A DNA stretch of 64,000 nucleotides from Sphingomonas sp. Lineage in GTDB: Bacteria > Pseudomonadota > Alphaproteobacteria > Sphingomonadales > Sphingomonadaceae. Numbering within the stretch: position 1 is the stretch's first letter; each line of letters opens with the position of its first letter. The stretch spans positions 1,054,001 through 1,118,000 of the forward strand of contig NZ_JAFKMA010000001.1 of NCBI RefSeq assembly GCF_017304635.1, written 5' to 3'. Both the position numbers and the translations under genes were made by a program. This document shows positions 11,476 to 27,672 of the stretch, in pieces. Below the pieces are notes generated by a model. The model was not told the origin of the DNA. It worked only from the letters and a program-made list of their open reading frames with translations, and did not search any database.

Positions 11476-11493
11476 CGCACGAGCGCCACAGGA

Positions 11494-11878
11494 TCTATAA
11501 GCCGGGTTCTGTCCTCCCCCGGACCATCATCCGGGGGATGGGCGACCATTCCTCTAGGACGACGCTCGCACGCCGCCTCCAGCAACCAACCCGGGCGACG
11601 AGCTGAAACGAAGCCCATGCGCCGCCCCTATTCGGTCTTGCTCCCGGTGGGGTTTGCCGTGCCGCGACCGTTACCGGCCCCGCGGTGCGCTCTTACCGCA
11701 CCCTTTCAGCCTTACCGTGTCCGAAGACGTTGGCGGTCTACTCTCTGTGGCACTTTCCCTGGGCCAAAAATCGCTTTCTGGCCCGGCGGGCGTTACCCGC
11801 CACCGTCGTTTCGCGGAGCCCGGACTTTCCTCGCGTGCTTGCGCACCCGCGGCCGCCCGATCCTCTGGCCGTCACCTT
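11494..11878 (-). ncRNA. rnpB: RNase P RNA, class A
   Basis: The catalytic RNA that trims tRNA 5' ends. Read on the minus strand, the 3' end has the conserved GACAGAACCCGGCTTAT, whose GGU-type region binds the CCA of pre-tRNA; the core contains the P4-type motifs AGAGTAGACCGCC and GAAAGTGCCACAGAGA, both characteristic of bacterial RNase P. Length of about 385 nt suits alphaproteobacterial type A RNA. The 5' boundary (around 11878) is set by the GGTGACGGCCAGAGG start and is approximate. Confidence 0.9.
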
Positions 11879-25772: not shown

Positions 25773-25783
25773 CCCGCCTATCT

Positions 25784-26050
25784 AGGGCCCGGACCAAGGA
25801 CCGGCAACGGTCGTGACGGAGCGGATTTTGGTGCCCAGGCAGGAGCAAGGAGGGAGCGATCTGAAAGCATCGTGACCGACGCACGACGCACATGGGTGCC
25901 AAAATCCGCCCGCGCAGCGGTCGCCGTGAGAAGCCCGCCGAGCGGCGTCGCTCGTTTGCGCGTAGCTTCAGCTACGCGTCTGCACCACGCCCCTTGTCAG
26001 CGGGCTTCTCACGGCGATCACGGCCATTGCCGGCCATTGGTCCGGGCCCT
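25784..26050 (+). repeat. Structured dispersed element, copy 1 (three-way-junction fold)
   Basis: Fills the 310-base gap before dnaX. Three nested stems are visible. P1: 25784-25816 with 26018-26050, 29 of 33 positions complementary. P2: 25821-25837 with 25893-25909, 15 of 17. P3: 25921-25938 with 26000-26017, perfect over 18, enclosing an 8-bp hairpin at 25959-25978 with a TTCA loop. P3 abuts P1 with no spacer. The segment GGTCGTGACGGAGC and the AGCAAGGA stretch recur in copy 2 at 27071-27340 on the other strand. Could be a non-coding RNA or a mobile intergenic element. Confidence 0.75.
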
Positions 26051-26082
26051 CGGCACGGCGCGCCGCGACGTCGAAGCCTCTG

Positions 26083-26391
26083 TCAGCGCCAGCGGCGGTA
26101 ATAGGGCCGCCGGTAATAGCGCGAGCGATAGTATGGGCGATGGCGCCAGGACCGGTACGGCCGGTACGTATAGCGCGGACCCCAGCGGCGGAAGCCGTAG
26201 CGACGATAGCCGTAGCGCGGACCGTACCGATATCGGTCGCGGTAACGATATTGCTCGGCCTTGACCGGCGTGATCGCCGCCGGCGTGGCGGGCAGGACGC
26301 GGACGGTGGTGGTCTCCGCAGCGGCGGGGTTCGCGGCGAGCGACAGGCCGGTGAAGGTCAGCGCGGCGGCCAGGATCGTGAGCAGGCGCAT
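26083..26391 (-). CDS. Small secreted Arg/Tyr-rich protein
   Basis: A 102-aa protein with a signal peptide (MRLLTILAAALTFTGLSLAA, cleavage likely after ANPAAA). The mature part becomes a run of Arg-Tyr repeats (YRYRDRYRYGPRYGYRRYGF and similar) with Pro and Trp, giving a very high positive charge. A GAGAGGA ribosome site precedes the ATG. Such RY-rich exported proteins occur in alphaproteobacteria without known function; binding to anionic envelope polymers is a guess. Neighbour of another basic secreted protein. Confidence 0.7.
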   Translation of the reverse strand: MRLLTILAAALTFTGLSLAANPAAAETTTVRVLPATPAAITPVKAEQYRYRDRYRYGPRYGYRRYGFRRWGPRYTYRPYRSWRHRPYYRSRYYRRPYYRRWR

Positions 26392-26725
26392 GGTTCATCC
26401 TCTCGACGTTGGGCCGGGATGGTATCAGCTTGGCGGGCGGATGGAAGGGCGATCCGGTGGGCGGGTCGGCGTTCGGGATGGGTCGGGACTGGTTGTGGCG
26501 TCGCGGCGGAGCCGCGTCGTCGGACGGGCCGCTGGCTCGCCGGCCGCGCTTGCGCGACTTGGCATCAGCTTCGCTGCTGCCATGCGCGCTGCGCGGTGGG
26601 AGCCGGAACGACCCGCGGCGAAATCGTTGTGGCTGCTTCCGTCAGGATCTGACCAGGTTGGCGACGACCACGTCCGCCCGACTCCCGCGGCGCATATGGC
26701 GGGGTCGGGCGGTGGTTTCAAGCGC
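26392..26725. other. Intergenic stretch without a supported gene
   Basis: 334 bases between the two small secreted-protein genes. Apart from the ribosome site of the downstream gene and short GC palindromes (for example CGCGGC-GGA-GCCGCG near 26503), I see no coding signal, RNA gene or repeat that matches other parts of the window. Confidence 0.5.
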
Positions 26726-26983
26726 TTACCAGCGCACGCGCACCTTCTTGCAGGTGCGGTACTTGTGACCGTGCTTCCACCAGGTCCGGCACTGCGTCTT
26801 CCAGCGGGTGCGGCCATGCCAGCCGTTATGGTGATCGCGCACCGTGGTGCGGCTCGTGACCTGACCATGGTCGCTGGTCGTGACGGTCCGCGTCGTCGTG
26901 GTCTGCGGCGCGGCCGTCGCGGCGCCCGGCACCATCATGGCGCCGGCGACGAACGCGGCGCTCAGACAAGCTGCTATTTTCAT
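26726..26983 (-). CDS. Small secreted basic protein rich in Thr, His, Trp and Arg
   Basis: An 85-aa protein. Signal peptide MKIAACLSAAFVAGAMMVPG with cleavage near ATAA. The mature chain has a Thr-rich start (PQTTTTRTVTTSDHGQVTS) and a basic, aromatic end with WKTQCRTWWKHGHKYRTCKK containing two cysteines that could form a disulfide. The ATG at 26983 follows a GGAGT-like ribosome site. The end of this gene and of the RY-rich gene downstream share a KxRxRW/YRRWR-like basic aromatic character. Function unknown; possibly cell-surface binding. Confidence 0.7.
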   Translation of the reverse strand: MKIAACLSAAFVAGAMMVPGAATAAPQTTTTRTVTTSDHGQVTSRTTVRDHHNGWHGRTRWKTQCRTWWKHGHKYRTCKKVRVRW

Positions 26984-27070
26984 TGTCACTCCTTTCACTC
27001 TCCCCTGATCCAGGGCAAACGACTTGGCGGCGAGGTCGTTCCATGAGCGCAATGGCCGGAGCGGGCGTTG

Positions 27071-27340
27071 TCGGGTCCGTAGTCGTCTGGCACGAGGATC
27101 GTGATTGTCAGCAGAAGGCCGCCGACGAGGAGTGCCGCGCCGTCGCGCAGCCGAAGCTGCGCGCAAGCAAGCGACGACGCTCGGCGGCCTTCTGCGGAAA
27201 ACCGCATGGCGGCGGCCCGATTTGGCGCCCGGCGGCGGCGCTACGTCAGTTTCGATGCCTTCAGCATCGCGCCTTCCTTGCTTCTTGCCCGACACCAAAA
27301 TCAGCTCCGTCACGACCTCGTGCCAGATGAGTACAGACCC
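27071..27340 (-). repeat. Structured dispersed element, copy 2 (three-way-junction fold)
   Basis: Second copy, in opposite orientation, between the ferredoxin stop codon and the basic secreted protein gene. P1: 27310-27340 with 27071-27104 (three mismatches, one gap). P2: around 27289-27305 with about 27214-27230, including wobble pairs, with an inner 6-bp hairpin CGATGC/GCATCG. P3: 27181-27195 with 27111-27125, perfect over 15, enclosing an 8-bp hairpin at 27144-27163 closed by a UUCG loop. Stem sequences differ from copy 1 yet stay paired. The rest of this 356-base gap (26984-27070) shows nothing clear. Confidence 0.75.
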
Positions 27341-27672
27341 TAGCGCCCCTGCATGTTGCGCGCCTCGGGCGGAATGCGGACGGTGAGGCCGTCGAGCGTG
27401 TCGTCGAGCACGATCTGGCAGGCCAGCCGGCTGTGTCGCGTCGCGCTCGCCGCGAGGTCGAGCATGTCCTCCTCCTCCTCGACCGCCGGCGGCAATCGCG
27501 CGAAGTCGGTGGCGTCGACGATCACATGGCAGGTCGAGCAGGCCATCTGTCCCTCGCACGTTCCTTCCAGCGGTTCGCCGGCGTTCTGCGCGACCGACAG
27601 CAAGGTGTCGCCCAGCGCCGCCATCACGTCACGCACCCCGCCGTTGCGTTCGATGAAACGGATGCGGATCAT
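27340..27672 (-). CDS. [2Fe-2S] ferredoxin, adrenodoxin type
   Basis: A 110-aa electron carrier. The cluster ligands are in GTCEGQMACSTCHV (Cys39, Cys45, Cys48) and RLACQIVL (Cys85), the C-x5-C-x2-C...C pattern of Isc/adrenodoxin ferredoxins. It starts at the ATG 27670-27672, overlapping the stop of the cysteine desulfurase gene by 4 nt, so it probably supplies electrons to Fe-S cluster assembly. Its stop codon TAG forms the edge of repeat copy 2. Confidence 0.92.
   Translation of the reverse strand: MIRIRFIERNGGVRDVMAALGDTLLSVAQNAGEPLEGTCEGQMACSTCHVIVDATDFARLPPAVEEEEDMLDLAASATRHSRLACQIVLDDTLDGLTVRIPPEARNMQGR

Follow-up and report, generated by a model that had tools for sequence, protein, structure and literature searches.

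A dispersed repeat with a folded hairpin core in Sphingomonas and its hairpin module in other Proteobacteria

In the genome of Sphingomonas sp., two similar palindromic stretches lie close together within a stretch of 64,000 nucleotides (here called the window), and the question is whether they represent a structured RNA, a mobile repeat or something of both. According to the original prediction, several stems differ in sequence between the copies and remain paired, which was taken as a sign of selection on RNA or DNA structure and not just of repeat copying. On the basis of end motifs, both predicted places were confirmed. Copy 1 (265 bp; 25785-26049, + strand) has the ends GGGCCCGGACC...GGTCCGGGCCC and blastn relatives and sits between dnaX and a small gene, and copy 2 (268 bp; 27073-27340, - strand, with GGGTCTG...GGACCC on that strand) lies directly behind the ferredoxin gene. 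The genes around both copies (dnaX, two small ORFs, SRP RNA and ferredoxin) were placed on the - strand; the names dnaX and ferredoxin are presumptive, being taken from the original prediction and from reading of the ORFs. As predicted, 12 bases separate dnaX (ORF start 25772) from the element end at 25785, and copy 2 touches the ferredoxin stop codon, the TAG at 27340-27342 consisting of the flanking TA and the first G of the copy. A TA adjoins the 5' end of each copy (25783-25784 for copy 1; 27341-27342, inside the stop codon, for copy 2), and the 3' ends lack it. A small bacterial SRP RNA (26592-26689, -) was found between the two copies, and an RNase P RNA elsewhere in the window (11482-11868, -).

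The architecture is the same in each copy: a long outer stem (P1) closes the hairpin P2, the small hairpin P4 and the hairpin P3. The three-way junction described before needs correction in this respect: with P4 (CCGC-NNN-GCGG) between P2 and P3, three hairpins and not two are enclosed by P1. In copy 1, folding and arm complementarity placed the P1 arms at 25785-25816 and 26018-26049, and P2, with the motif AGGAGC/CGACG, occupies 25816-25911 (+; match to covariance model R2, E 1.4e-22). It is followed by P4 (CCGC-GCA-GCGG, 25910-25920, +), which is based on the sequence and the alignment structure and where the RNA fold centroid differs, and by P3 (25922-26016), which resembles P2 when read on the - strand (R2 match at 25923-26015, -, E 3.9e-7). 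In copy 2, the 5' and 3' arms of P1 were likewise placed at 27310-27340 and 27073-27104 (-), P2 at 27213-27310 (-; R2, E 1.1e-21), P4 (CCGC-CAT-GCGG, from sequence and alignment structure) at 27202-27212 (-) and P3, by folding, at 27111-27195 (+), in the orientation opposite to its own P2 and with a weak R2 match at 27098-27200 (+, E 0.0024). When stretches slightly longer than the element were folded as RNA, minimum free energies of -182.7 kcal/mol (copy 1) and -160.4 kcal/mol (copy 2) were obtained, with z-scores of -12.5 and -7.4; 0 of 200 shuffles folded equally well, and both copies thus fold far better than shuffled sequences. The window contains the shared block GTCGTGACGGAGCNGATTTTGGTG at two places and no more, against a mean of 0.00 in 100 shuffles, and the hairpins at the tip of P3 read as originally described, CGCGTAGC-TTCA-GCTACGCG and CGCGCAGC-TTCG-GCTGCGCG. 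Chance similarity was rejected on the basis of the shuffled folds, the block count and the covariation reported below. A protein-coding core was not supported because loop and core lengths varied by single bases and no frame was kept. A Shine-Dalgarno-like AAGGAGG...ATG in P2 was set aside as a start site since the loops behind it vary, and this reading was further weakened by the reversed P3, in which AAGGAGC was seen by eye without the ATG arrangement.

The view of a two-copy element had to be given up, as seven full copies were found in the same genome (DNA search, E < 1e-27; the others of the 42 places at E up to 10 were short or weak), the other six being 74-82% identical to copy 2. Matches were present in 22 out of 61 genomes of the genus at E <= 1e-6 (own genome counted), with up to 14 in one genome, part of them pieces of one copy, and in 14 out of 199 genomes of the family, with three candidates scored per genome. 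A pattern scan of named genomes revealed at least 119 stretches, nearly all from records titled Sphingomonadales; among the stretches listed were Sphingomonas, Sphingosinicella, Croceibacterium, Qipengyuania and other genera, two records titled only Alphaproteobacteria and one Arthrobacter. A full copy (L177) is present in record QDFQ01000001.1, titled Arthrobacter sp. TPD3018, which is perhaps a mislabelled sphingomonad. A profile search of the collected loci gave 231 matches, of which 156 were full and 118 unique with flanks. The element is 265-275 bp long, occurs in multiple copies and contains no transposase gene.

An empty site could be read clearly in one comparison, where the flanks of L068 were contiguous in L154 (CCGACCCTAGCCCCAGCC, empty; CCGACACTA[GGGTCC...GGACCC]TTACCCCAGCC, occupied), the other compared pair (L166/L132) being unreadable. 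The site reads CTAG and is not palindromic. A clear element end was found by automatic reading in 70 of the 118 copies, with TA on the left in 39, on the right in 38 and on both sides in 21; in both window copies TA is on one side only (5'). Genes were called roughly from codon-position GC, and 76 of the 86 copies with enough flank lay between two genes, whose orientations covered all four possible arrangements (22, 21, 19 and 14), at a median distance of 21 bases from gene 3' ends and 36 bases from 5' ends. In 31 of these 86 copies, more than 60 bases of the element were covered by an ORF, according to a rough and unchecked ORF caller. The element is a dispersed repeat rather than a lone RNA gene.

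The outer arms were examined with regard to a possible transposon origin. The terminal inverted repeats (P1) are 30-35 bp long and often adjoin TA. Within a copy the two arms were 91% complementary (1300 of 1423 positions, 42 copies), whereas left arms compared between these copies had a mean identity of 74%, and column identity in the P1 arms was 0.457 (110 copies). In both window copies complementarity was 85%. Of the previous description of the arms as nearly unrelated yet complementary, the complementarity stands, and the arms themselves are better read as what look like transposon terminal repeats, which in some copies match, over their outer 16 bp, the ends of IS5-family insertion sequences from Sphingomonas genomes. 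A search of eight genomes with arm sequences led to an insertion sequence with such an end (L247), whose pieces match DUF4096 (PF13340) and DDE_Tnp_1_2 (PF13586) and whose ends, GGGTCCGGACTCATAACG and GGGTCCGGACCTATAAACG, adjoin TA; the matching IS5-family members presumably belong to the group called IS427-type. DUF4096 was present in 11 of 20 genomes searched, and a readable end repeat was found in 11 of 30 IS loci, the other 19 giving none. Over 16 positions, IS ends and element arms agreed completely for L291 (the same IS as L247), at 15 positions for seven loci with similar ends, all to the L066 arm and one of them in our genome, and at 13 for one locus in our genome; two other, unrelated IS reached 11 and 10. 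Among 500 shuffled 16-mers the best agreement was at 13 or 14 positions, found for four of them, and 15 was never attained. Random TA-G 16-mers from the loci reached 15 or 16 in 31 of 500 cases, a control made unusable by the element ends that the sampled loci contain. The genome carrying the L066 element (G005) also has an IS beginning with TTAGGGTCAGGACTCG. IS were sought for some arm types, and most arm types had no partner. The hairpin core gave one weak match only (E 0.058) in the 30 IS loci, and its carriage by the IS was rejected; thus, the core is not simply a deleted IS.

Several further observations concern the arms. A 55-bp remnant (L258, G040:C30:30043) consists of two P1 arms without core, and a single arm lies just past an apparent stop codon in our genome (L228, G000:C1:199325). 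At an AAYGG position in the arms of Sphingomonadales copies, T in one arm was combined with C in its partner in 34 of 37 cases, and the direction of this mismatch flips (T/C 9, C/T 25, T/T 3).

Covariation was analyzed in 60 diverse copies (at most 81% identical) with a consensus structure of 88 pairs, which was derived from the same alignment and is favoured by it. Pairing was observed in 95.3% of 5252 cells, as compared with 74.2% in shuffled and 31-40% in slid versions; changes on both sides occurred in 78 of the 88 pairs, and the covariation score was 0.561 versus 0.155 after shuffling. The claim that pairing is kept through two-sided changes is therefore well founded for these 60 copies, beyond both kinds of control. 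An internal motif (AGGAGC/GCGACG) is conserved while the stems change freely but stay paired. Within this motif, AGG[x]G and C[y]ACG covary without Watson-Crick pairing: the 60 copies contained the states (A,G) 52 times, (C,A) 5 times and (A,A) 3 times, and a set of 41 modules, 15 of which are common to both sets, contained (A,G) 30, (C,A) 9, (A,A) 1 and (G,G) 1. It should be noted that these counts ignore kinship and that two columns were candidates for the 3' position; the column closer to the stem base was used, the other showing no covariation.

A selected RNA strand should show G-U wobbles above A-C, although such counts ignore the kinship of copies. In P1 the two classes were equal (GU 93, AC 87), giving no sign of selection on a single RNA strand. 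The ratio of G-U to A-C on the + strand was 90:22 in P2 and 18:62 in P3, that is, 62:18 for P3 on the - strand; such opposite biases make selection on a folded single strand plausible for both hairpins, and strand-specific folding of P2 (+) and P3 (-) is plausible from these alignments. In P4 the ratio was 114:2, for which a single invariant G-T column is almost wholly responsible (110 copies). The bare upper part of P2 folded as DNA gave z-scores of 0.22 and -0.45 in the two window copies, values which neither favour a single-stranded DNA model nor firmly oppose it because the lower stem was cut off. Thus, 'selection on structure, not just repeat copying' was half right: pairing is kept and P2 and P3 have a wobble bias, but P1 is unbiased, and the second half falls as stated in view of the dispersed element, the empty site, the TA-flanked ends and the transposon-like P1 arms.

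The opposite biases correspond to an inverted arrangement. P3 on the opposite strand matched the P2 model, the best match elsewhere in the window having E 0.021. In the whole genome, seven P2 matches were followed by six opposite-strand P3 places (E 2e-5 to 0.009), which included that of copy 1, and the P3 of copy 2 was absent from the genome-wide matches. The P2 model also gave two antisense matches on P2s, and matches outside the elements began at E 1.5, with six between 1 and 10; the E-values come from a shortened calibration, and this search suggests that they are about right. Each half of the element holds the same kind of hairpin, the wobble bias lying on the strand that is entered at the end of that half, and the hairpin module is about 96 bases long.

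Further investigation revealed this module far outside the family. The P2 covariance model (60 copies) matched 24 out of 385 alphaproteobacterial genomes at E <= 1e-3, 22 of these genomes being outside the family of the window (22 of 276 genera). Of 25 such loci checked, three others cut by contig ends (L302, L313 and L314) having been left out, 21 loci from 13 genomes proved to be elements of 264-297 bp bounded by complementary arms, whose stems mostly differ from the Sphingomonas ones; this arrangement was not seen in L312, L318 and L323, nor in L322, which a contig end interrupts. In L303, L308, L316 and L321 the best single-sequence fold was a different, long one. A second model based on the 41 modules matched 77 out of 398 Pseudomonadota genomes (42 of 212 genera) at E <= 1e-4. 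Of 20 loci read, seven had the double-hairpin form (L337, L338, L339, L344, L348, L352 and L354), three a shortened form (L340, L342 and L351) and five, by eye, arms around a single hairpin (L343, L345, L347, L353 and L356), the remaining five being cut or unclear (L341, L346, L349, L350 and L355). A gammaproteobacterial relative had matches in four plasmid records, two of Azotobacter and one each of Halomonas and Pseudomonas (77-78% identity, 35-39% of the query covered), and these records list no feature at the matched place. A search of plasmids with the window copy gave nothing, and a search of phages with one relative was likewise negative. One genus outside the alphaproteobacterial draw contained 82 modules in 10 of 13 genomes, with 28 in one genome. 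Of the 70 loci read there (L357-L426; genome G953 and its genus), 44 had clear single-hairpin arms and 37 close genes on both sides, and they belong to a single-hairpin family, about 167 bp long and with the ends CTAGTGTGGTGTTTCAG, that was amplified recently.

Taken together, the element is likely a non-autonomous transposable element (MITE) of about 265-275 bp that would be moved in trans by resident IS5-type transposases and whose hairpins may be selected as folds. The features observed were small size, multiple copies, no transposase gene, terminal inverted repeats, one empty site and IS-like ends, and the element probably depends on a borrowed transposase. The outer arms of one copy would stay alike since a single enzyme must recognise both ends, which would also explain why both ends change together. 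Each hairpin would most likely act as a folded single strand, either transcript or single-stranded DNA, read 5' to 3' from the nearer end, and would most likely be kept because it helps the element to spread or makes insertions tolerable. Counting against this reading, TA flanked both ends of no more than 21 of the 70 readable copies and a single end of each window copy, and the IS match covers some arm types, with a readable end in 11 of the 30 IS loci. A broader proposal, which we offer tentatively, is that a mobile hairpin module is inherited by shape throughout the phylum: its stems would be rewritten freely while pairing and one non-canonical motif are kept, and it would sit inside terminal repeats belonging to many different transposon ends, either alone or as an inverted pair presenting the same fold at each end, as a transposon passenger with a common folded signal read by a host or transposon factor.

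Two other readings place the cause of covariation elsewhere. If the host made use of a structured RNA, non-coding or acting in cis, wherever the element sits, the copies being spread by transposition and kept for their RNA, the covariation over 60 copies, the strand-specific wobble in P2 and P3 and the covarying non-canonical motif would be expected. Constraint at the same site also fits: copies in two species were 94.8, 94.4 and 97.9% identical with a nested insert set aside (a fourth pair was nearly identical throughout), as compared with 77-79% at third codon positions of the same stretches. However, other noncoding positions there reached 84-95%, and another alignment of the first pair, nested insert included, gave 90.1%, which made the excess constraint moderate. 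Presence is patchy in both the genus (22/61) and the family (14/199), and P1 has no wobble bias. In addition, 81-85% of the double changes in P2 and 34-48% of those in P3 cannot pass through G-U, which is not expected this often in ordinary RNA helices. In the single-hairpin genus, hairpins were sense to co-directional genes in 8 cases and antisense in 12 (p 0.50; 20 cases, low power), which lends no support to a role in host mRNA, set aside on this ground, and leaves a role at the level of the element or in its own RNA. We consider the host RNA unlikely. The frequent transversion-type double changes would be easier to understand if one arm were copied from the other by template switching or conversion in a selfish palindrome without function of its own and without selection on the fold. 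The equal wobble classes of P1, the almost strictly Watson-Crick cells at the base of P3 (1287 of 1319) and one both-arm change between the same-site copies L187 and L218 agree with this, as does the upper part of P3 in L094 and L220, which is inverted relative to other copies and may be a sign of recombination between arms. Such copying would not explain why the P2 loops (column conservation 0.838) and the motif are more conserved than the stems (P2 stem, 0.656; P3 base, 0.596), why the motif covaries without Watson-Crick pairing or why P2 and P3 have opposite wobble biases. Moreover, in 115 copies (outer P1 left out of the structure) the double share of changed pairs was 0.20 below 5% divergence (six pairs of copies), 0.39 at 5-10%, 0.61 at 10-15% and about 0.70 beyond, a rise which fits change followed by compensation; since one-sided changes dominate the few close pairs, simultaneous copying of both arms as the only cause is not favoured. 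A purely selfish palindrome thus seems distinctly improbable.

Inverted hairpin pairs and strand-specific folding also recall REP elements, and the element might be a long relative of REP/BIME or CGTC repeats; the mobilising enzyme would then be of the TnpA-REP (RAYT) type and act on hairpins in single-stranded form, and the outer arms would be captured target palindromes. According to PMC3733652, REP dimers occur within palindromes, and there are CGTC repeats, found mostly in alphaproteobacteria, that have no transposase dedicated to them. The arms, however, match DDE IS5-type ends with TA preferred, the readable empty site (CTAG) is not a palindrome, and the module of about 96 bases compares with 20-40 bp given for REPs in PMC3733652; such an origin has very little probability. 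Some copies deserve separate mention. In the shortened copy L257 (G030:C5:40307), P2 and the P3 half are joined at GCGTCGC, a motif common to both, in the way that recombination between the two hairpins would leave them. Another palindrome, about 60 bp long (AGGTCGCC..GTCCCCCGGAC..), is nested in P2 or P3 of L091, L092, L249 and L253 (three Sphingomonas loci regions) and also in L055, L089 and L090 at contig ends; L082 is a copy at the same site as L091 without the nested insert, and L093 contains a different nested palindrome.

Bacterial MITEs are generally regarded as insertion sequences that have shrunk and carry nothing of their own. Here, by contrast, elements from many genera differ in their ends and yet share one folded core with RNA-like covariation. 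If selection acts on this core, a binding partner would be expected, together with a role in mobility or in the tolerance of insertions, and screens for structured RNAs that are based on covariation could mistake such elements for RNA genes.

With respect to known families, neither the window copies of the element nor any of 17 related loci reached the gathering score of an Rfam family, which bears out the expectation that no named family fits; a loose cut-off gave only miRNA models at P3, at a fraction of their cut-offs, and a known Rfam RNA was rejected. The element was not described in the titles or abstract openings of the open-licence literature searched. ERIC, Correia/NEMIS, YPAL and RIME are palindromic intergenic repeats of about 100-200 bp able to fold as RNA; the likeness rests on their general description, and the element differs in having no Rfam match. 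With IS5-family MITEs it shares short size, dispersal, IS-like terminal inverted repeats, a preference for TA and the lack of a transposase gene, but its core consists of two inverted hairpins that are absent from the 30 IS loci and recur behind different ends in many genera. Like REP/BIME and CGTC-tagged repeats, which are palindromic, intergenic, often inverted dimers and common in alphaproteobacteria (PMC3733652), it is built of hairpins, whereas it is about 265 bp long with IS-like ends and a module of about 96 bases whose stem sequence is free. The nearest kinds are therefore IS5-type MITEs and REP/CGTC repeats, and the element differs from both by its shared structured core. What appears to be new relative to these known kinds is a folded core that has the same shape but a different sequence in distantly related proteobacteria.
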